A stretch of 64,000 bases of DNA from a bacterium (GTDB lineage: Bacteria > Orphanbacterota > Orphanbacteria > Orphanbacterales > Orphanbacteraceae), in NCBI GenBank assembly GCA_025782575.1, contig JALGYY010000017.1, positions 485,892 through 549,891 on the forward strand, given 5' to 3'. The notes beneath the pieces were generated by a model. The model saw only the letters and a list, made by a program, of their open reading frames with translations. It was not told the origin of the DNA and ran no database searches. Every line of letters begins with the position of its first letter. Position 1 is the first letter of the stretch. The position numbers were made by a program, and so were the translations under genes. This document shows positions 4,139-48,002 of the stretch, in pieces.

Positions 4139-6452
4139 CCATCACCGCCAGATACACATCCAGAGTTCTCTCTGCAGCTGTGCGCCAGGAAAATCGAGCC
4201 GCCCGTTCGATTCCTCTTTGTGAATAGTCCGCATGTAGATCGTCATCTTCGAGAAACCTCAAAATCCCATTGGCGATTTCAGCCGGGCTTTCCGGATCGA
4301 CATGAATTCCCGCCTTGCCTACGACTTCGTTGATGGCGGGTGTGTGAGAAACGACAACTGGAATTCCGCAGGCCATCGCCTCGAGAGGAGGCAATCCGAA
4401 TCCTTCATAGAGTGAAGGAAACACGAAAGCGCGACATCCGCTATAGAGGGCCGGCAGATGCTCGGCAGAGACGAACCCCGGGAACGATACCGATCCGCCC
4501 AGTCTCAGTCGCTCTACGGCTGCTACGATCTCCGGCCGCTCCCTCATCTCGGATCCGGCCAGAACAAGCTTCCCGCCAAATCCTCTGTCCCGCACCTGGC
4601 GGAAAGCTGCCAGAAGGTTTTCGATGTTCTTATGAGGCAGAAAGTTGCTTACACAGAGCAGATACTCCCCCTGCAGACCGAATTCCCGGGCCGTTATCAC
4701 ACGGGCATCATCCGCGGCGATCGGATGAAATCGACGGTCCACCGCGTTGTAGATCACCACGATCTTCTCTCGCGGCACACCCAGATTTCGGACGATGTCG
4801 TCTCGTGATGATCGAGAGACGGTAATGATCTTCGCCGCACTTCTTGCGGCTGCAAACATCATCGCTCTCGCATAGACAGCGGCTGCGCGAGACGGAGGAT
4901 AAAAGAGGTGAATGAGGTCGTGGATCGTAACCACCGCGCGGCACGGCCGTATCGCCGGTAGCACATAGTGAGGGGAATGAAATAGATCGATCCGCGTCCG
5001 GCGCATCTGAATCGGCAGCGTAATCAATTCTCGAACCGAATATTTTGGAGATCGGTTCTCGACGTGTGTGAAGTTCTTGCTCCCCACATTCGGTTCATCA
5101 CCCGCCTGAAAAAGAACATACTCCCTCGTTGAATCGATATGACCAAGCTCGGTAACCAGGTTTCTTATGTAAGTTCCGATGCCGAAATCGTCTATTTTGC
5201 GAATATCGATTCCGATGCGACCTCGCACTGTGCGCCGGACCATCGGCCCCCGGCCACGTTCCGAATCCCGGATGATCCGGGAAATCTGTTCGATACGAGC
5301 GTCCCACGTATTGTTCTTCGCCACGCCAAGCGTCTCTTCCCTGCTCCGCGGCTCGTCTTCCAGGGCCTTCTGAATCTCCACTACGAACGACTCTTTATCG
5401 ATCGCCATACGACAGTGTTTCCGATACTCATAGACTGACGGAAGATCGACGACGACAATCGGCTTGCCCGTAGCGATATACTCATGAAATTTCATGGGAA
5501 ATACATTCATGGTCGTATCATTCAAGGCAAACGGAATCATACAGACATCGAATCCCTTGAGGTAGCCGGGCAGATCTTCGTAAGAACGGGTTCCCAGAAA
5601 GTGAACCTGGGGAAACGCCTGAAGCGCCTCGATCTCTTCACGCTTGTCGCCCGGCCAGACCGGCCCGATGAGCACGATCGACCAATCGGGCCGAGTCTCC
5701 GCAATATGTCTCAATAGCTCGAAATCAATCTTGTAGCCGGAAATCGCCCCTATGAATCCGATCACGGGACCGGATAGCCCGCTGACATCATCGGGCACGA
5801 CGGTCTCTTCCAATGTCGCCTTGTGAAAGTGATCGTAGTCCGCCACGTTCGGCAGGTAGAACGTGTTTTCGTTATGGGGTCGCTTCGATTCGTAGAGTCC
5901 TTTCGATGTCGTGAAGACCAGGTCGGCTTTGGACATCAGTAGCCGTTCAAGTTCGTGAATCACTTTGGCTGGAACTCCCGGGTTCGCCCCGTATTCGTCG
6001 ACACAGTGATAAATGCAGAGTCGTTCTCCAAGATGACCGACCAACCCGCTCGATGTCGGGAGAAATGTCCAGAGGATCGGGTTTTTGAAACCGATCTTTC
6101 GGGCATGTCGATTCAGGCTCGACCGGAGGTGCCAGTAGTTGAGATGGCGAACCCAGGTCAGCTTATAGAGGGGAAGGACCAGAGGTGAATAGACATGGAG
6201 GTTTTCAGAAACAGGCTTAACACCATGTGCCCAGCTCGACAGACGGCCCAGTACACGATGAATGTCCCGCCATCGAGCAGTCGGTGTCCGGAGGCCGAGC
6301 GATTCCACGAACAGCACTCGATTGTTTCTGGCCAGGCGCGACATGATGTGCTGGGAATTCGTCCAGAGTTCGGCATCCCAGTTCGCGGAGGCCATGCAGA
6401 TGATGTCCGCCCCCTCGAGGAGAGGGGGCTTTTCTTTTGGGGAGTCCTTCAT
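4131..6452 (-). CDS. Two-domain glycosyltransferase fusion (GT-B plus GT4)
   Basis: This 773-residue protein is two complete GT-B enzymes in one chain. Residues 1 to about 400 resemble TuaH-like family 1/4 transferases (IICMASANWDAELWTNSQH near the start; FHEYIATGKPIVVVDLPSV near 330). Residues about 410 to 773 form a GT4 enzyme beginning RIGIDIRKIDDFGIGTY, with TIHDLIHLFYP in the middle and FPSLYEGFGLPPLEAMACG in the donor site. The two halves are joined by a short linker rich in R and G around residues 395-408. No stop or frame break separates them, so fusion is a real property of this sequence. Two successive sugars of one repeat could be added by a single polypeptide. Its stop overlaps the next GT gene. 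Confidence 0.85.
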   Translation of the reverse strand: MKDSPKEKPPLLEGADIICMASANWDAELWTNSQHIMSRLARNNRVLFVESLGLRTPTARWRDIHRVLGRLSSWAHGVKPVSENLHVYSPLVLPLYKLTWVRHLNYWHLRSSLNRHARKIGFKNPILWTFLPTSSGLVGHLGERLCIYHCVDEYGANPGVPAKVIHELERLLMSKADLVFTTSKGLYESKRPHNENTFYLPNVADYDHFHKATLEETVVPDDVSGLSGPVIGFIGAISGYKIDFELLRHIAETRPDWSIVLIGPVWPGDKREEIEALQAFPQVHFLGTRSYEDLPGYLKGFDVCMIPFALNDTTMNVFPMKFHEYIATGKPIVVVDLPSVYEYRKHCRMAIDKESFVVEIQKALEDEPRSREETLGVAKNNTWDARIEQISRIIRDSERGRGPMVRRTVRGRIGIDIRKIDDFGIGTYIRNLVTELGHIDSTREYVLFQAGDEPNVGSKNFTHVENRSPKYSVRELITLPIQMRRTRIDLFHSPHYVLPAIRPCRAVVTIHDLIHLFYPPSRAAAVYARAMMFAAARSAAKIITVSRSSRDDIVRNLGVPREKIVVIYNAVDRRFHPIAADDARVITAREFGLQGEYLLCVSNFLPHKNIENLLAAFRQVRDRGFGGKLVLAGSEMRERPEIVAAVERLRLGGSVSFPGFVSAEHLPALYSGCRAFVFPSLYEGFGLPPLEAMACGIPVVVSHTPAINEVVGKAGIHVDPESPAEIANGILRFLEDDDLHADYSQRGIERAARFSWRTAAERTLDVYLAVMDG

Positions 6453-36271: not shown

Positions 36272-36366
<95 letters not shown>

Positions 36367-36441: not shown

Positions 36442-36527
36442 TGGCGGAGGGAGTAGGATTCGAACCCACGAACCTTTCGGTTAACGGTTTTCAAGACCGC
36501 CGCCTTAAACCACTCGGCCATCCCTCC
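36442..36527 (-). tRNA. tRNA-Ser(TGA)
   Basis: This 86-base class II tRNA includes encoded CCA. The anticodon loop CTTGAAA gives TGA (codons TCA and TCG). Its 5' end lies only 13 bases from the integrase stop, so this gene marks the border of the island. The island is on the 5' side of the tRNA, which is unusual for tRNA-directed integration. Confidence 0.95.
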
Positions 36528-36540
36528 GTGGATGGTTAAG

Positions 36541-37581
36541 CTACTCGGTGACAGGCGGTTGTGTCAATCTTATTGAACCCACATTCACACATGAACTATT
36601 TTTTGCTACGGTCTTTGCTACGGTTTGCACTGAAAACACCCTTCCCACCTCCCTCTCCACGGCATCATCAGATAGCTTACCGTAGCGCTGTGTCGTCACG
36701 ATCGTCGAGTGACCTAGGATTTGCTGGAGGGCAGCGATGCCTCCTCCCTGCTCCAACCAGCGGCACGCATAGGTATGGCGAAGGCGATGGCAACGAAAGT
36801 CCCTGATGCCGCTCAGACGTCGAACCATCCTCGCGAAGGCACCCGAGCTCTTCTCCCCAAACGGAATCACCTTCCCGATCCTCCCGCGCAGCTCAGCGCA
36901 AATCTCGACCGGCAAAGGAACCCTACGCACCTTACCGGTCTTAGTCTGGCTCACCGTGAGCTTCCCCTTCTGGATATCCGCTACCTGAGCTCGTGCCATC
37001 TCCCCCCAGCGAAGGCCAGTCGATAGGCCAAAGCGGATCACGAAACCATATGGCTCTTGAAGCAGAATCAAGGTCTCGACCTCTTCATCCGACAGCCTAG
37101 CAGGAGGCTTCTCTTGGATTCGCGGCATCATCTTCCGACGGAATGGTGTCTTGTCGATCAAGCCGGAGTCCTCGCACCACAGAAAGAAGCATCGGCAATC
37201 GCTCAGAATATGGGCCACTGTTTGGATACTCACTCCTTGCTTCTCGAGCCAGATCCGATAGAGCCGAATATCGTCTGGCCTTACACTCGACAGCAGTTTG
37301 TACCCCAGTTTCTTTCCGAGGTATCGCTCGACCCGGTACTTAGCTGTTCCCACATTCTTGTCACTCCGGGCAACAGCTATGTACGTTTCAAGCCAGCGAA
37401 CTGCCGCCTGATTGACTGAGAGACCAGAAGCCGGTTGATCACCTCGCTTGATGCGACGGAATCTCCGACACGCTTCTCCAAGATCTGGCCCTAGGCAAAT
37501 CCATCGTTCCTGCCCCCCATCATAGAGGCGCGAATACCATGAACGTCCGCGACGAAACATCCCCTTCAGTGGTCGCGGCAT
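36541..37581 (-). CDS. Tyrosine-type site-specific integrase
   Basis: This 346-residue phage-type integrase has an N-terminal SAM-like core-binding domain (about 55-150). Its C-terminal catalytic domain carries R191 (in TGLRWGEM), H266 and R269 (in HRLRHTYACRW), H291 (LGHST) and the nucleophile Y300 (TTQRYGKL). All catalytic residues are present, so it is likely active. It cuts and joins DNA at the att site, probably in or next to tRNA-Ser(TGA). It follows the HTH gene by six bases and is the last gene of the long minus-strand unit. Confidence 0.93.
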   Translation of the reverse strand: MPRPLKGMFRRGRSWYSRLYDGGQERWICLGPDLGEACRRFRRIKRGDQPASGLSVNQAAVRWLETYIAVARSDKNVGTAKYRVERYLGKKLGYKLLSSVRPDDIRLYRIWLEKQGVSIQTVAHILSDCRCFFLWCEDSGLIDKTPFRRKMMPRIQEKPPARLSDEEVETLILLQEPYGFVIRFGLSTGLRWGEMARAQVADIQKGKLTVSQTKTGKVRRVPLPVEICAELRGRIGKVIPFGEKSSGAFARMVRRLSGIRDFRCHRLRHTYACRWLEQGGGIAALQQILGHSTIVTTQRYGKLSDDAVEREVGRVFSVQTVAKTVAKNSSCVNVGSIRLTQPPVTE

Positions 37582-37587
37582 ACAGCA

Positions 37588-37794
37588 TCACTCCCTTCGA
37601 GCCGCCAACCACCGAGTGATTGTCTTTCGCTCGAATCGTATGACGGAGCTGATTCGAACGCAAGGGAGCTTTCCCGCGGCTGCCCAGGCATAGATCGTGG
37701 ACGGTCGAACTCGGAGCCATTCTGCGACCTCTAGAACGGTCAAGAGAGCTTCCTTCTGAGCCTGGGTGGATTCATTCTCAGTTCCTGGACTCAT
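37588..37794 (-). CDS. Excisionase-like HTH protein
   Basis: This 68-residue protein has a MerR/Xis-type winged helix: LLTVLEVAEWLRVRPSTIY followed by AWAAAGKLPCVRISSVIRF. Such proteins bend DNA at att sites to bias excision or regulate the integrase gene. It lies six bases upstream of the integrase gene. Confidence 0.82.
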   Translation of the reverse strand: MSPGTENESTQAQKEALLTVLEVAEWLRVRPSTIYAWAAAGKLPCVRISSVIRFERKTITRWLAARRE

Positions 37795-37857: not shown

Positions 37858-38259
37858 TCATTTCTGGTATTTCACGTCGGACTTATTTGGAAACAATTCG
37901 CTAATCCGTTGCAACATTTGACCTAAGGGTAGAACACATATTTCAGGTGGCCCTAGCTCCGCCGGCCTTTGTGCCAGCTTCCGCTTGACCCTTCGTTCGA
38001 TGTGGGATTCTGGGACGATGATGAAGAGATAGTGAGCTTTCAGCTGTCTCGCCTTTTCGACGTCACGCAAAACTCGATCCGGTGATAGCTCAGCCTCGAA
38101 CGCAATCCGAACTGATCCATGGAGAACAAATCCGTCGATGAATCCACCTTGTGTTCCCGGACCTACTGGGTACTCCCTATAGACAGTCGCACTGAGATAC
38201 TGGAAGTACTGCATGAATGGGCCAAGAAGCACTTCGTTATGGACAAAGCCGCCTTTCAT
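37858..38259 (-). CDS. Predicted PD-(D/E)xK-like nuclease partner of the ATPase
   Basis: This 133-residue protein of unknown family has E29, then D42 in GGFIDGFV and E55-x-E57 in IAFEAELSP. This spacing of E, D and ExE(K) resembles the restriction-endonuclease fold, followed by an alpha/beta ending in AHYLFIIVPE. The last catalytic Lys is replaced by Glu, so activity is uncertain. Its ATG overlaps the stop of the ATPase gene by four bases, so the two are co-translated. The second island ATPase (46062-48002) has a similar domain fused at its C-terminus, which supports a functional link. This is inference from motif and context. Confidence 0.6.
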   Translation of the reverse strand: MKGGFVHNEVLLGPFMQYFQYLSATVYREYPVGPGTQGGFIDGFVLHGSVRIAFEAELSPDRVLRDVEKARQLKAHYLFIIVPESHIERRVKRKLAQRPAELGPPEICVLPLGQMLQRISELFPNKSDVKYQK

Positions 38260-39950
38260 AACTCCCTATCCTCGTTGAGGTCGCGGGCGGGTTTGAGGGG
38301 TTCGAGAACAATTGCAGTGCGACCTCGTTTACCGGTGGCGATTCTGTGCTCTCGAATGAGTCCCTTCTTGACGAGTACTTTGCGCGCGTCAACGGCACGC
38401 TGACCATTCAGTTTGGCCAGTTTGGAGTAAGTGCTTGACGGTTTTCCGGGGTGCTTCAGTATCGCTTTGAGAAATCGTACCTCTGCTTCTGTCAGGTTTA
38501 GGGTTTTCGAATTCGATCGCTCCTTCGCCCTTGACTGAGATACGGTCTCGATTGGTCGGGGACGCCAGTTTGCATATTTCTCTGCTGGAATCACTGGGAG
38601 AGAAGAAAGGGGCTTCTGACTCTCAACTACTGCCTTCTCATTGACTCGATCAGGAATTTGGATATTGGGCGCACGGAAAATAAATGGTTCTCGCCAGTCA
38701 GAAGTCGCGATTTGGCCGGCGAACATACCAGTTTTGAGATGCTTACGTACCCAGGAGAGTTGTTTCTGGCTCATTCCTAGGTGGCCTGCCATGGCGCGGT
38801 AATCATCGTCTGATCCCAGACGACCAAAAAGCTTGATACTGAGATTTGGAATCAAGGATTTCGACAATGAGTGGACGCTCTGAACGAGAATTCCTAGACC
38901 AAGCCCCGCACCTCGGATGACACCCGCCAATTCTGTTAGCGGCGTGATTGATCCACTGACAGCCTGATCTTCGTTTAAGAACCGTTGACCATCCTCGAGG
39001 AGGGTAAACAAGGATAGAGGAGCGTTCGGGATCCCGTGCTCGACGCGACTCTGCATAACGCTGAACATGGCAGGCTCCAGGAGGAGCTGCTTGATGTTCT
39101 CTGCGGCTCCCCGCATCTCAAACACTATTGAATGATGTGCAAGATCCAGATAGTCCCAACCCCGCGAATAGGCTGCTACTTGTGGTGTTAACGACAGTAG
39201 CAGAGAGGCCATTCGGTCTAGGATTGAGTCCCGCGCGGCAGCGTTGAGGCCTTGTTTCGTGCGCACCCATTCATACAGGTCAAAGAGACATGGATACTCC
39301 TTCTTGCTCTCGCTCTCCCAGATGCCGAACCGATCATAGAGAGACTGGCATCCTTGGTTTAGGATCATCCGTGCACGGGGAGGTACTCCTAGGATCCGGG
39401 CCAATAGGTCTACGATCGTGTTGAGGTGCGTGCGAGGGTGAACGCCGGAAGGCTGCAGAGGATTGATCCTCCAATCGCTTGGGCGAAGAATCACAATTGA
39501 GCTGCTTTGCCTAGCCAACGCATACTGAAGCGATCGGATCTGGGCTTTGTACATATCGCAGATCCATACGTTGCAACCAGCCACAATCAGCTGGAAAGCC
39601 AGAAAATGAACAAATGTTGTCTTTCCACCCCCTGACTGGGATACCAGCAGCAGGCCACTTGCAAAGTCCTGCATGGGAATCCGAACATCGCCCCCCGGAA
39701 TTGCCGTTCCCAAATGAATCTCTCCTGAGTTTAAGCGAGGCTTTCGAAACGGAATGGAATCGCCAAGTAGTTCGCGGATCCGAAATCTATTCACTCGATT
39801 CTGGATCAAGTTAGTGACAATCTTGTCTGCAGCTCCAGCCGACCACGCCCGAACGAGACCCTGGCCAACCTCATCGTCGAAGAGATCGCGCTCCAAACCC
39901 CAGACTATCTCGCTGAGCAATGGATCCTTCGAGTCCCTGGATTGACTCAC
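38256..39950 (-). CDS. HerA/VirD4-type AAA+ ATPase with C-terminal winged helix
   Basis: This 564-residue protein has Walker A SQSGGGKTT at 104-112, IWDMYKAQ-like strand 2 at about 128, and Walker B FTLLEDGQRF near 322. A Thr/Gln-rich sensor region (GLGILVQSVHSLS) follows, then a tail (about 490-550) with LTEAEVRFLKAILKHPG that looks like a winged helix. This is the layout of hexameric DNA-pumping ATPases (HerA, VirD4/TraG). It overlaps both neighbours by four bases: the zinc-finger gene upstream and the nuclease-like gene downstream. It probably translocates DNA or loads the nuclease. No membrane helices are evident, unlike TraG. Confidence 0.8.
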   Translation of the reverse strand: MSQSRDSKDPLLSEIVWGLERDLFDDEVGQGLVRAWSAGAADKIVTNLIQNRVNRFRIRELLGDSIPFRKPRLNSGEIHLGTAIPGGDVRIPMQDFASGLLLVSQSGGGKTTFVHFLAFQLIVAGCNVWICDMYKAQIRSLQYALARQSSSIVILRPSDWRINPLQPSGVHPRTHLNTIVDLLARILGVPPRARMILNQGCQSLYDRFGIWESESKKEYPCLFDLYEWVRTKQGLNAAARDSILDRMASLLLSLTPQVAAYSRGWDYLDLAHHSIVFEMRGAAENIKQLLLEPAMFSVMQSRVEHGIPNAPLSLFTLLEDGQRFLNEDQAVSGSITPLTELAGVIRGAGLGLGILVQSVHSLSKSLIPNLSIKLFGRLGSDDDYRAMAGHLGMSQKQLSWVRKHLKTGMFAGQIATSDWREPFIFRAPNIQIPDRVNEKAVVESQKPLSSLPVIPAEKYANWRPRPIETVSQSRAKERSNSKTLNLTEAEVRFLKAILKHPGKPSSTYSKLAKLNGQRAVDARKVLVKKGLIREHRIATGKRGRTAIVLEPLKPARDLNEDREL

Positions 39951-40396
39951 TTCTTGCCCCTCCGAAACGAGTCAATCGGATGAAGCAGGGCGCTTGCTAG
40001 AGCCTTTCTCTTGCGTTGGCGAGTCACGCCATCATTGCAATACGAACAAAGACGGGCAGGTCTTCCGTGATCAAAAAGAAAATACTTTGAACAGCGAAGG
40101 CAAAGAGGTTTTTGGCAGAGGGTACAGCGACCAAAGCAGCCGCTGCAGGAAATATCTTCGCAGTGGGGTTCCCCACACTGACCGCCAATTTGGTATTGTG
40201 CGCTGCATCCGCAGTCGTAGAATTTCTCTGGCACCACACGAACGCTGTCAATGGAGCCTTCGACAGATAAGCTTACTAGTTCTCCTTGTACAGGTTCAAT
40301 GCGGGCCTTCCCCTTCTTGTCTTTGCCGATCTTCACTTCGACCGTGCGGCGAACCGGCTTACCGGAGTTGCCGAAAATTAGGTCAAGAATCTCCAT
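39947..40396 (-). CDS. Zinc-finger protein of the ubiquitin-like cassette
   Basis: This 149-residue protein has twelve Cys (62, 64, 74, 79, 84, 87, 91, 94, 99, 102, 117, 120) and His 78 and 110 in its second half. The part CTLCQKPLCLRC then CSYC gives paired zinc knuckles like a B-box, FYVE or other treble-clef fold. The N-terminal 55 residues include a Lys-rich strand. Bacterial RING-like fingers are known beside Ubl/E2/E1 genes, so an E3 or adaptor role is possible, but no RING cross-brace is clear. It overlaps the ATPase gene by four bases. Confidence 0.65.
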   Translation of the reverse strand: MEILDLIFGNSGKPVRRTVEVKIGKDKKGKARIEPVQGELVSLSVEGSIDSVRVVPEKFYDCGCSAQYQIGGQCGEPHCEDISCSGCFGRCTLCQKPLCLRCSKYFLFDHGRPARLCSYCNDGVTRQRKRKALASALLHPIDSFRRGKK

Positions 40397-41128: not shown

Positions 41129-41938
41129 TCAAGAGCCACAAACTGGGCAGCCTTGCCGAGGCGGCACGAGTTTCGAAGAGCCAAAGTCGGATCGGCTCAA
41201 TGAGATGACGCGATAGTTCCAGTCACGTTTCCGATCCATCAGCAATGTGTCGATGGCATACAAAGCGACTCCGCCAAGAGTCTTCAGAATGTCGCCGCAA
41301 GCAGGGACGCCAGGACAGCGTTCCTGCGATTCAGCATCGCGATTCTTGTATTCTGGCTTTTGAACGCAAGCCCAGCACGCTGAGTCAGGTTCCTGAACAA
41401 AGATGTAGCCATAGTCGGCATCCAGACTTACTGCAAAAAAGATGCAGGCTATTCTGAGTGAATGGCATGTACGACAAATACTGAGACGTTCTTCTGGATA
41501 CTGGTTGTCTATGCTGCAGACCACGAAATCTGGGTTGAGACGAGCTATGTCAATCTCTTCAGACGAACATGGGTGAGCGATCAGCCTAGTGCCGAGAAAC
41601 CCTCTCGCGCTGAGGTTCTTGCATAGCCTGATTGCCTTATTCTTGTAGATATCTCGGTCTAAGAATTTCTGGCGGTTCAAATTCGACGGGCTCACTAGGT
41701 CATGGTCTACGATGTGAGCTTTTCCGATACCTTTCTGAATCACGCCCTCGCAGACTTCTCCATTAGCACCGCCTGCACCTATGAAGAGGCCTGTCGACGT
41801 GGCTAGCCGAGCTTGATCCCAACCCGGAATCCGTTCCTGTCGGTCAGAGACCTTTACGGCGGTATTAATGTGCTTACACTTCCAGTGGCGCTTCTTCCGG
41901 TACATTCCGGAAAAGCCGCTTCTCAATTTGCTCAACAT
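41129..41938 (-). CDS. E1-like ThiF/MoeB-family adenylating enzyme
   Basis: This 269-residue protein has the nucleotide-binding GAGGANG at 54-60, D78 and NRQ at 88-90 (R finger), K101 and D144, all hallmark ThiF residues. Zinc is bound by C188, C191, C264 and C267 (CWAC and CPVC). C208 and C214 in RCPGVPACGD lie in the usual place of the thioester loop. It would adenylate the C-terminal Gly of the ubiquitin-like protein and pass it on to the E2. Start 41938 lies inside the JAMM gene; a second ATG at 41905 is possible, and the first 45 residues are not conserved. Known relatives are the E1 enzymes of Bil and Bub systems. Confidence 0.85.
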   Translation of the reverse strand: MLSKLRSGFSGMYRKKRHWKCKHINTAVKVSDRQERIPGWDQARLATSTGLFIGAGGANGEVCEGVIQKGIGKAHIVDHDLVSPSNLNRQKFLDRDIYKNKAIRLCKNLSARGFLGTRLIAHPCSSEEIDIARLNPDFVVCSIDNQYPEERLSICRTCHSLRIACIFFAVSLDADYGYIFVQEPDSACWACVQKPEYKNRDAESQERCPGVPACGDILKTLGGVALYAIDTLLMDRKRDWNYRVISLSRSDFGSSKLVPPRQGCPVCGS

Positions 41939-42620
41939 GGTTTCCTATCACTTTGACGTTAAAGTCAAGCCCTGAGCTGAAGAAACGGAGATAACCATCA
42001 CGCGACCAAATTCCTCCTACAAGTGCTCTCTGGGACTCCCACCGGGCGTGAGTACGTAAATCAACCGACGACGGTATGTTCGCGTGCGCCCCACTGCCTG
42101 GGTGGGCATGTATCAAGGCGAGTAGCCGGTGCCCAGCCTCGTGCATCTCAATACAGATTCTGTGTGTTGAGAGATGATCTCCGGAAGCTGACGCTATCGA
42201 GCGGGTAGCGTACGGAAACTGTACAAGCTTGGTTGCTACCAAAGCGCCATCGACTTCTATCCCGGCGAAGAAGTGCATCCCTTCCTCGGCAGATTCGGTG
42301 CAGATGGAGAAGGATTCTTTTAGCAGTAGAGACGAGAAGACGAACTCGCGCGGGGCTTGACTTGTTAGAGGAGTCAGTTGTTTCAGCCACTGGAGCTCTT
42401 CTTGAATCTGGTTGAGCTGGCCAGCAGCCGCCAGAATGCCACTCACGTTTCCTTCCCCGGCGTGGCGAGCAATGGCTTTCCTGAGCCGATTGGCTTCTAT
42501 AGCTGTTCTGCTAAGGAGCCGTTGATGGTTCCTCAGCAGCTTTCGAGCGAGAAGGGTTCTTGCCGTCTGTTTGAACTTATAGGTCCCAAACCAGGCTTTG
42601 AATTCTTCTGAAAGGTTCAT
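41874..42620 (-). CDS. JAMM/MPN+ metalloprotease (deubiquitinase-like)
   Basis: This 248-residue protein has a helical N-terminus (1-90) and a JAB domain with the zinc motif HAHPGS (H171, H173) and S184-x-x-D187; E122 is a candidate catalytic Glu. The motif is complete, so peptidase activity is expected. In ubiquitin-like cassettes this enzyme trims the Ubl tail to expose Gly-Gly or removes Ubl from targets. ATG 42620 sits in TGATG overlapping the E2 stop; a longer frame from 42701 would overlap the E2 gene and is not preferred. Confidence 0.85.
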   Translation of the reverse strand: MNLSEEFKAWFGTYKFKQTARTLLARKLLRNHQRLLSRTAIEANRLRKAIARHAGEGNVSGILAAAGQLNQIQEELQWLKQLTPLTSQAPREFVFSSLLLKESFSICTESAEEGMHFFAGIEVDGALVATKLVQFPYATRSIASASGDHLSTHRICIEMHEAGHRLLALIHAHPGSGAHANIPSSVDLRTHARWESQRALVGGIWSRDGYLRFFSSGLDFNVKVIGNHVEQIEKRLFRNVPEEAPLEV

Positions 42621-43045
42621 CAGACGGTCTCGCTGAGGCAGTTCTCTACGCTCTTTATGCCGACGTTCAAGCTTTCTGGCTTTGGAGAGATGTGAATCCA
42701 ATAGACGTTCTTTCCTCTAGGAACAAAGCAAACGCCGTGAGGACCTTGAAGAATCTCCTCGGGAGGTTTCAAGATGTAGAATCTCGGGCGTTCAGAGAAG
42801 GGGTTCCGAATCTTCCCCTCATAGGCTCGGTGATTCACCCTGTAGTAGCCGTGAAGCTCTTCCTTCTTTCGAAGCCAGCCCCTTTCCTTCCAAAAAGGAA
42901 TGGAATTCCTGCGGATCACTTTCCTGCCGTTGCTGCAGGTGCGCCCTTTAAGAGTCTTGGTTTTGCCTGATTCCTTCTTCTTGCTCTTCTTACCGAACAG
43001 AGCTAGACAAGCGAGAGCCAAGAGTAGGAGAATCGCAACTTCCAT
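42620..43045 (-). CDS. E2-like protein with N-terminal membrane anchor
   Basis: This 141-residue protein has a membrane helix at about 3-18, a Lys-rich linker (19-45) and a soluble domain with GYYRVNHRAYEGKI near 66-79, FYILKPPEE near 89 and the candidate catalytic C106 in GPHGVCFVPR. The pattern of a HP-like turn, then G-x-C, then IKSVENCLSE resembles the UBC fold of prokaryotic E2 families. C136 is a second Cys. GGAGG five bases before the ATG is formed by the Gly-Gly codons of the Ubl gene. It would carry the Ubl as a thioester at the membrane. Fold assignment is by pattern, not by search. Confidence 0.68.
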   Translation of the reverse strand: MEVAILLLLALACLALFGKKSKKKESGKTKTLKGRTCSNGRKVIRRNSIPFWKERGWLRKKEELHGYYRVNHRAYEGKIRNPFSERPRFYILKPPEEILQGPHGVCFVPRGKNVYWIHISPKPESLNVGIKSVENCLSETV

Positions 43046-43292
43046 TTTCGCCTCCAGTATTTCGTTTGGTTAGAATCGCAACGCTAGCCTCCGGCGATGC
43101 ATAAATTTTGTCCCCGTCTTTGACCAGCGCAAACACTGATTCGTTGTCCCCGAATGGCTGACCATCCCTGGTGCTGACCCAGTAGCTCTGTGGCAGGCTA
43201 AGGTCGTTACGGATATCATTCGGGGTTGTTCCCGGATAAACAATGATGTCATGAATTGCGTCACCGGCGATCACTGCGAGTCTCTTGGCCAT
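42990..43292 (-). CDS. Ubiquitin-like protein with internal Gly-Gly and C-terminal tail
   Basis: This 100-residue protein has a beta-grasp pattern: KRLAVIAGDAIHDIIVYPG, a helix in TPNDIRNDLSLP, then YWVSTRDGQPFG and SVFALVKDGDKIYASP. The core ends with Gly80-Gly81, followed by a 19-residue tail ending SSSVR. The tail would have to be cut off for the Gly to be activated, and a JAMM peptidase is encoded two genes on. Residues 78-81 are NTGG, compared with LRGG in ubiquitin. The gene lies four bases after the coiled-coil gene and overlaps the E2 start. Confidence 0.8.
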   Translation of the reverse strand: MAKRLAVIAGDAIHDIIVYPGTTPNDIRNDLSLPQSYWVSTRDGQPFGDNESVFALVKDGDKIYASPEASVAILTKRNTGGENGSCDSPTLGSRLSSSVR

Positions 43293-46061: not shown

Positions 46062-48002
46062 TCAGCCCTTGTCACGGAATCTGATTTCCACTCGGATCGG
46101 AATCAGCAATCCACTTTCCGCAAGTTCCTTCTCGACCTTTACCATAGCTGCCTGATCAGTCGCCACAACTACGACCTTAGAAAAGCCCGACAACAAGCTT
46201 TTCTTCACATTTCCAATCACATCGCTCATTCCAGTCTCAATCTCAACAGAAACGCTCTCATCGGCTCTCGTAGCCAATACATCAACCCTACCGCCGACTC
46301 GAGGAGCTTCAATCTGGACCTTGTAACCTTCTTCCCTGAGTTTCTCAGCCCAGTGATGCTTCCAGAACTCGTGCGCGATTGACTCACGAGTGAACTCACC
46401 CTTGATACCAAGGATTTTCCTCGCCCTTGTCGACAATCTCAGAAGATTCTTCCTGGTTCGCCCGATGGTAACGAGCTGCTCATCCAGCCATCCATTCCGG
46501 ACAAGCATCGATTTAATCCGATGGCCCTTGTCAACCGACCATCTCAAACGTTTGTATCGAGCGTCTACACCATCATTCCTATTCCGTAGAATATCCTGGA
46601 TAAGAACGAATTCATCGCCTTGAAGGCCTTTATCTCCAACCCGAGACCGTCCCAGGACCCCAGAGTCCCTTCCTACAGCCTTTCTCAGTCCCGAGAGTGT
46701 CATAGAACCGCTCATGTAGCTCTCTAGGAGCTGATCTGTTACAGACCCCTTGGGGACTTGCATGTGAGGAATGTTTAACAATACTGGAAAAGTCCAGCGA
46801 TCTTGAAGTTGGCAAATTGCTTGACCAACTGGCAGTCGCGCAAGGTGACCTTTATCATCCGCATCCAGCCGGCAAATATTGGAAGCAACATTTACGTCAG
46901 CAGGGTCCTTCTGATTCATGAACAGCGTGGCGAATGCATTGCCAAGGCCAGCCCGGCTGATCATGGAGCAATTCTGATCCACAATAATGATTCCGAGCCC
47001 AACCTCTCTAGCTTCCCGTAACAACCGCTCGAGGATTGACTCCTTTTGATTCCTGCCTCGATAAAGAACGTGGTGTGCCTCCTCAATAATCAGGACAAGA
47101 TCAAGTCTCTCGCGAGCTCTCGCAGACAATTTTGTGTAGAAGATCCAGAGTGCCAATGCCTGAGTCAGCACCTTCTTAGACGCGTGATCCAAACCATTCA
47201 ATTCTATCATGCTAAAACCGTTAAGTAGCTTGTCAATCGTTGTTTCTTGTGAGCTTCTAGTTCCTGAATCTAGATTGGCGAATGCAAGACTCTCAAGTGC
47301 TCGAATCGCTGATGTCTTCCACCCAAGCTTACGACCTTTTTCGTCGTGCTTCTCAACTTCCAGTAGCACATCATTAACTGTCGGGCTCAGAATGCCATGA
47401 TTGTAGCAGCTCACAATCCCCTTCTGTAGAATGCGCTGAGCACCCTCTCCAAGCTGGTAGGCTTCAGCGAAAATATCTACAATCAGGTTGATGTAGATGT
47501 GAGGCTCAAGATAAGGTGGCGAGACAAATGGATTGAAAGGTATCGGCGACAGTTTCTTTCCAGGAGTATAAACTGCAGCTTTCTTATTGAGAAGGGGGAG
47601 CATATGTCTGCCAGTGCGTTTCCAGTCAAGGAAAACCCATGCAATTCCTTTCTCAGTGAGCTGATCGAGGATATGAAAGACAAGATTTGTCTTACCGCTT
47701 CCACTCCGCCCAAACACTCCAAGATGTTGAAGCAGCTCTGATTTTGAAATTCCAAAATCCCACTTCTCCTTGTCGTAGAGAACCGTACCTAGATGTATGG
47801 GTCCTCTTGCTCGGTTTTTGGGAGGGAGACTCAAGAGAGGTTGCTTACGGAAATCTCCGAGAGTTCTATAGGCAAGCTGGATCAGGTGCTTGTCAAGAAG
47901 ATCTCTCAACTCAGAATCGGCAATGTCTCTAGTTCTTCTCCAGTGAGCTACCGCCTTGGGTTTGAGCGGTTCCAGTTTCCGGGCTAGTTTCTCAATTTCC
48001 AT
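46062..48002 (-). CDS. HerA-type ATPase with C-terminal nuclease-like domain
   Basis: This 646-residue protein has Walker A GRSGSGKT at 98-105, Walker B LVLIIEEAHHVLYRG near 300, and the HerA-like stretch LLREAREVGLGIIIVDQN. A DNA-binding-like middle (about 470-540) leads to a C-terminal domain with D in GRVDVLAT and E-x-E in VEIETG, then VKKSLLSGFSKVVVVA, like a PD-(D/E)xK nuclease or its inactive relative. In contrast, the first ATPase of the island has this domain as a separate gene. It overlaps the next upstream gene by 11 bases. HerA with nuclease partners acts in DNA end processing and in phage defence (established for the family). Confidence 0.8.
   Translation of the reverse strand: MEIEKLARKLEPLKPKAVAHWRRTRDIADSELRDLLDKHLIQLAYRTLGDFRKQPLLSLPPKNRARGPIHLGTVLYDKEKWDFGISKSELLQHLGVFGRSGSGKTNLVFHILDQLTEKGIAWVFLDWKRTGRHMLPLLNKKAAVYTPGKKLSPIPFNPFVSPPYLEPHIYINLIVDIFAEAYQLGEGAQRILQKGIVSCYNHGILSPTVNDVLLEVEKHDEKGRKLGWKTSAIRALESLAFANLDSGTRSSQETTIDKLLNGFSMIELNGLDHASKKVLTQALALWIFYTKLSARARERLDLVLIIEEAHHVLYRGRNQKESILERLLREAREVGLGIIIVDQNCSMISRAGLGNAFATLFMNQKDPADVNVASNICRLDADDKGHLARLPVGQAICQLQDRWTFPVLLNIPHMQVPKGSVTDQLLESYMSGSMTLSGLRKAVGRDSGVLGRSRVGDKGLQGDEFVLIQDILRNRNDGVDARYKRLRWSVDKGHRIKSMLVRNGWLDEQLVTIGRTRKNLLRLSTRARKILGIKGEFTRESIAHEFWKHHWAEKLREEGYKVQIEAPRVGGRVDVLATRADESVSVEIETGMSDVIGNVKKSLLSGFSKVVVVATDQAAMVKVEKELAESGLLIPIRVEIRFRDKG

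Follow-up and report, generated by a model that had tools for sequence, protein, structure and literature searches.

A double glycine in a bacterial ubiquitin-like protein as the probable out-of-register reading of a Shine-Dalgarno sequence

Described ubiquitin-like cascades and the operon of the window

The closest described relatives of the locus examined here are the bacterial ISG15-like (BIL) anti-phage operon BilABCD, the operon of the archaeon Caldiarchaeum subterraneum, and the bacterial operon types 6d and 6e of Iyer et al. 2006 (PMC1779556). The operon found in the 64,000-nucleotide stretch of DNA that we analysed as a whole (the window) belongs to a family that is a variant of these cascades. 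BIL likewise unites a ubiquitin-like protein (Ubl), a separate E2, a JAMM peptidase and an E1 in one operon. In structure comparison, BilA (8tyx_A, 8tyz_B) ranks among the best matches to the window Ubl, BilC (8tyx_B) resembles the window JAMM weakly in sequence, and the E2 cysteine is followed at approximately +12/13 by a histidine, in likeness to C138/H151 of BilB (PMC11354881). In contrast, the BIL Ubl has two domains, as against the one beta-grasp domain of the window protein, and the BIL E1, BilD, is also of two domains, whereas the E1s of the present family span 260-290 residues (269 in the window) with a single adenylation domain (PMC11354881). The family further departs from BIL in that its Ubl is often fused to the E2 and that it brings along an extra ATPase, nuclease-like and zinc proteins and an integrase.

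The Caldiarchaeum operon codes for the ubiquitin homolog CsUb, an E1, an E2, a RING protein and Rpn11. Here, the window Ubl finds its best structural match in CsUb (6fno_D) and the JAMM its best profile match in Rpn11, and in both systems a zinc protein and a JAMM stand beside the cascade. The family differs in being bacterial and probably carried on integrative elements, in its one-domain E1, in having no Gly-Gly, and in an E2-like domain for which no similarity to known E2s was detected. Type 6d combines a separate small Ubl with a C-terminal Gly, an E2-like Cys with a downstream His, a JAB and an E1, while in type 6e some species have the Ubl joined to an E2-like domain, and a treble-clef zinc protein is present (PMC1779556). 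The fused E2-like domain of type 6e is inactive (PMC1779556), whereas the Cys is kept in the fusions of the present family. Both types are distinguished from the family by the latter's single Ubl domain, separate E1 and JAMM, HerA-like ATPase and integrase.

MoaD and ThiS with MoeB and ThiF offer a similar E1 length and a single adenylation domain. The family's Ubl end, ...V-x-G, lies near the ThiS/MoaD position. The family differs in its JAMM and E2-like genes and in having no sulfur-transfer partners, and its E1 falls clearly outside MoeB/ThiF, with NCBIfam scores far below the cut-offs.

The features of the window are collected in Table 1; that the Ubl, E2-like, JAMM and E1 genes form one operon, as the preliminary description of this DNA had held, is borne out. 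The AF2 model predicts a beta-grasp fold for the Ubl, with block means of pLDDT at 88-96 up to approximately residue 70 and 55-61 thereafter. A structure search with this model recovered 88 PDB matches at E <= 0.001, of which the 50 listed are largely ubiquitin- or SUMO-like, with Caldiarchaeum ubiquitin (6fno/6fj7), bacterial BilA (8tyx) and SUMO at the top. Pfam scans of the Ubl family returned no significant family.

Table 1. Features of the operon and its flanks, in window coordinates
Feature	Position	Strand	Basis or remark
Ubl ORF as printed, 100 aa	42990..43292	-	beta-grasp model, 13 relatives
Conserved Ubl core, residues 1-71	43080..43292	-	pLDDT, codon score
Ala72, usual Ubl end of the family (V-G column)	43077..43079	-	alignment of 14 members
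TAA in the +1 frame	43070..43072	-	one-base shift near codon 72 would give a 73-residue Ubl
Tail codons 73-100, probable out-of-frame spacer and E2 gene	42993..43076	-	codon statistics
Shine-Dalgarno core GGAGG of the E2-like gene, inside Ubl codons 80-81	43051..43055	-	
11-nt direct repeat GTTGCGATTCT	43072..43082 (Ubl, break point) and 43029-43039 (E2 start)	-	
E2-like protein, 141 aa	42620..43045	-	Cys106 conservation
JAMM/JAB peptidase	41874..42701	-	invariant catalytic residues
E1-like adenylating enzyme, 269 aa	41129..41938	-	Pfam ThiF 6.1e-18
Predicted membrane protein, 150 aa	40689..41141	-	sequence; no clear family
Predicted membrane protein, 116 aa	40409..40759	-	sequence; no clear family
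Cys-rich zinc-binding protein	39947..40396	-	12 Cys, four CxxC
HerA/TraD-like ATPase, 564 aa	38256..39950	-	homologues in most relatives
Small nuclease-like protein	37858..38259	-	homologous to L028 5825-6250
Excisionase-type helix-turn-helix protein	37588..37794	-	homologues in three relatives
Tyrosine integrase	36541..37581	-	adjoins two tRNA-Ser genes (36273-36366, 36442-36527)

The E1 shows the GxGGxG, D-x-D and N-L-x-R-Q motifs and the catalytic Cys of the ThiF superfamily, with G54/56/57, D78, D80, R89, Q90 and Cys208 invariant; in profile comparisons, eukaryotic UBA1 is its best match with ThiF close behind. In the JAMM, which probably begins with the ATG at 42620, in a TGATG overlapping the E2 stop, the residues of the E...H-x-H...S-x-x-D motif (E140, H198-x-H200, S211 and D214) are invariant in 15 sequences. 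Pfam Prok-JAB stays below its cut-off for the window protein, and the match to Rpn11 reaches E 2e-4. The third enzyme is a putative E2 on the strength of gene order, an invariant Cys and predicted topology, the model showing a strand meander, a Cys loop and a C-terminal helix. Its Cys106 is invariant in 16 of 16 sequences, and His103 and His118 are nearly so. No PDB entry matched this model at E <= 0.001, with CdnG-E2 (8yjy) and FANCL as weak matches, and neither Pfam nor NCBIfam scans of the E2-like family gave a significant family. A search of the window's own genome for Prok-E2_B found no match, as was also the case for the control. In the window E2-like protein, residues 3-17 are predicted to form a hydrophobic helix at the N-terminus, with KKSKKK behind it (42980-43045); the relatives do not have this segment, and the protein may be membrane-anchored.

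Where the ubiquitin-like protein ends

According to the preliminary description, the Ubl core ends in Gly80-Gly81, and these glycines are encoded by the ribosome-binding site of the next gene. The positions agree with the sequence: codons 80 (GGA, 43055-43053) and 81 (GGC, 43052-43050) of the 100-residue Ubl are also the Shine-Dalgarno of the E2-like gene, whose ATG lies at 43045-43043 in the frame +1 relative to that of the Ubl. The 19 residues behind the doublet, E82-R100, do extend into the beginning of the E2 gene, in the other frame. The spacing of five nucleotides to the ATG is right for the GGAGG core, and it is four for the six-base GGAGGC.

That activation or cleavage takes place at Gly80-Gly81, on the other hand, is not supported by the alignment of relatives, which had been proposed as a check with glycine-free relatives counting against it. 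In this small alignment (14 rows: the window and 13 relatives), the conserved end is a Val-Gly. The column of Val71 holds Val in 13 of the 14 members, and that of Ala72 holds Gly in 12 (binomial p ~1e-11 at background Gly frequency), with Ala in the window copy; L020, a member of the window's clade, is also without the conserved Gly. Two consecutive glycines occur at this site in only 4/14. Positions 80-81, which lie 8-9 residues past this end, carry Gly in none of the 13 relatives, being a gap in 12 and Asp in the remaining one. The Ubls encoded by separate genes close with VGVV*, VGF*, VSRP* or WGL*, the stop coming 1-2 residues past the V-G site. A clade of the E1 tree (support 100/99) unites the window with L028 and L020, whose Ubls are separate and have no tail.

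Codon usage points the same way. When the codon usage of 282 long genes from this genome serves as the reference, Ubl codons 1-71 reach +0.37 bits/codon. Codons 73-100 score -0.43 bits/codon, which is below all 282 sampled in-frame 28-codon segments and resembles out-of-frame ones. The DNA that this tail shares with E2 codons 1-19 scores +0.22 bits/codon in the E2 frame, a value attained by just 0.7% of the segments read out of frame. At the break, the +1 frame reads R-F-stop and closes the protein at 73 residues, the usual length in the family; this stop is weak evidence by itself, because a chance stop nearby is to be had in one of the two other frames about 1/3 of the time. One single-base deletion around codon 72 yields V-G-F-stop, the ending of the L029 protein.

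Hence, the tail probably consists of spacer and E2 sequence that a one-base shift close to codon 72 has put into the Ubl frame, and the claim that it arises from overlapping frames stands, in that the Ubl frame runs on into both. Behind approximately codon 72, the reading frame would cross a 24-nt spacer, the Shine-Dalgarno and the E2 start one base out of its ancestral register. We therefore consider it likely that the double glycine is the E2 Shine-Dalgarno read out of register by one base, that the family's Ubl ends at Val-Gly, and that JAMM, E1 and E2 would act on this end in the manner proposed below. The register shift may reflect a genuine mutation or a mistake in the assembly, both being compatible with the printed sequence. 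The 11-nt direct repeat GTTGCGATTCT has one copy at the break point and a second at the E2 start; it was weighed as a possible template of the shift and is only noted here, given that repeats of at least this length occur in ~1% of comparable stretches.

A different reading takes the tail for a genuine, recent read-through extension, with the JAMM still maturing the Ubl at the old site behind Ala72. The expected catalytic residues of the conjugation cascade are all retained in the window E1, E2-like protein and JAMM. A cut after Ala72 could still occur, since archaeal CsRpn11 accepts Ala at the last position and processes a Gly78Ala precursor (PMC6043591). Ala is nevertheless an unusual end for a Ubl, and the tail is without codon adaptation; we regard such an extension as improbable.

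Slightly less credible is the reading of the preliminary description itself, by which the JAMM cuts the 100-residue precursor behind Gly80-Gly81, the diglycine doubling as ribosome-binding site being the activated end. It draws on the presence of both a Gly-Gly and a JAMM gene, and on CsRpn11, which cleaves the CsUb precursor behind Gly-Gly and so removes a short tail (PMC6043591). Against it stand the family alignment and codons 73-100, which as a whole are not coding-like. Moreover, the coincidence of Gly-Gly and Shine-Dalgarno does not go beyond chance, because an internal GGAGG spells Gly-Gly in one of three frames and the coincidence is thus expected in 1/3 of such overlaps. A sample of 464 kb of the genome (20 stretches of 20 kb and the window) bears this out: a GGAGG lies inside the upstream gene before the ATG in 7 overlapping gene pairs, and in 3 of the 7, the Ubl/E2 pair included, it is in the Gly-Gly frame. 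Shine-Dalgarno motifs are in use in this genome, being present before 72 of 152 ATG genes as compared to 12 of 152 internal controls. The attractive idea that a ribosome-binding site gave rise to an activation motif is thus likely wrong.

Ubl-E2 fusions and the proposed maturation

We counted fusions over the 14 loci at which both the Ubl and the E2 parts are readable, the window included. The two lie in one open frame at 8 of these (L017, L021, L023, L024, L027, L030, L032 and L033) and are separate genes in the window, L020, L026, L028 and L029. In all 8 fused proteins, the Val-Gly is kept directly before linkers without obvious mutual similarity, and the next gene has an intact JAMM motif. 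A conserved Val-Gly at every fusion junction, before unrelated linkers, favours the JAMM as the maturing peptidase, with a cut at Val-Gly. Together with the precedents of CsRpn11 and of BilC, which uncovers the Gly at the C-terminus of BilA (PMC11354881), it makes the idea of a JAMM maturase reasonable for the family. The part of the preliminary description that saw the JAMM as a processing peptidase is thus plausible for the family; the site it had assigned, Gly80-Gly81, gives way to Val-Gly. We propose that the JAMM would cut behind Val-Gly, either trimming a free Ubl or freeing the Ubl from a Ubl-E2 fusion. The E1 would then adenylate the exposed Gly and carry the Ubl on Cys208, from where it could move to the E2-like Cys and on to a target, perhaps via the zinc protein. 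These natural fusions with a conserved junction Gly make maturation by the JAMM directly testable with small purified proteins.

At L025, a run of nine A (4847-4855) splits the Ubl-linker from the E2, and a -1 reading restores a typical linker (KKKS-VQLVRTRSM); this split may reflect slippage, phase variation or an assembly error. It could be cited, along with the +1 position of the window E2 frame relative to the Ubl frame, for a programmed or phase-variable frameshift that joins and separates Ubl and E2, so that the free and the fused form are both made, but we give this very little credence, as the window has no slippery run, its E2 has its own Shine-Dalgarno and ATG, and the stop in the E2 frame at 43072-43070 means that a shift near codon 72 would terminate the Ubl instead of fusing it.

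Breaks are also seen in other relatives, namely in the E1 of L028 (2900-3010), the JAMM of L029 (2440-2600) and the Ubl/E2 of L031 (4800-5060). Among those inspected at the base level (L025, L028 and L029), only that of L025 falls at a homopolymer. Gene breakage seems frequent in this Ubl/E2-like/JAMM/E1 system.

Distribution and mobile setting

The Ubl is absent from the other genomes of the window's phylum, which comprises 7 genomes, and the gene set was found in 3 of 386 sampled genomes besides that of the window. The E1 search gave three true relatives, G140, G234 (locus L021) and G272 (locus L017). A scan of GTDB contigs with an alignment of the E1 relatives gave 14 loci (L020-L033), two of which are the G140 and G234 records. 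The hosts comprise Planctomycetaceae, Phycisphaerae, WOR-3, Lentisphaerae/Victivallaceae, a deltaproteobacterium, Omnitrophota and Terriglobia, with a further copy (L026) on a contig filed under Micrarchaeota, an archaeal candidate phylum; the latter is either a binning error or a cross-domain transfer. Other E1 matches were set aside: the 30% identical protein of Acinetobacter NZ_CP077849 is an ordinary MoeB-like gene without partners, and those in G302 and G064 are MoaD/MoeB beside an aldehyde ferredoxin oxidoreductase. Viral contigs yielded no match to single-protein searches or to an exact search with the E2 gene start, and one remote match to a profile search.

The loci of the family carry a tyrosine or serine integrase beside the Ubl cascade genes. 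With integrases adjoining it, the set is probably cargo of integrative elements, and its distribution is scattered; a search for a long direct repeat at the ends of the element found none. The Cys-rich protein has a homologue in L028 and Cys-rich counterparts in other loci, and is a possible E3-like adaptor. The ATPase of one relative matches Pfam DUF87 (HerA) at 3.2e-6, and the L032 counterpart of the small nuclease-like protein scores above the Pfam cut-off for CoiA_nuc.

With PADLOC, weak matches were obtained only for the E1 (to E1-E2 profiles) and the ATPase, and none for the Ubl, E2-like protein or JAMM. In our searches, Pfam, NCBIfam and PADLOC had no entry for the operon family as such; the literature compared was that under open licence, and an earlier description is possible. 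These complete Ubl cascades, scattered over bacterial phyla and the Micrarchaeota-filed contig, are thus barely visible to the three resources. Tentatively, and at well under even chances, the family could be an uncatalogued class of mobile Ubl cascade in which the JAMM liberates both parts of a Ubl-E2 polyprotein at Val-Gly, acting with a zinc-finger adaptor, a HerA-like ATPase and a small nuclease in defence or in competition between elements.

A second HerA/TraD-like ATPase of 646 aa (window 46062-48002, minus strand) belongs to the same homology cluster as the first, has an apparent nuclease-like C-terminal part, and may be part of a neighbouring related module.
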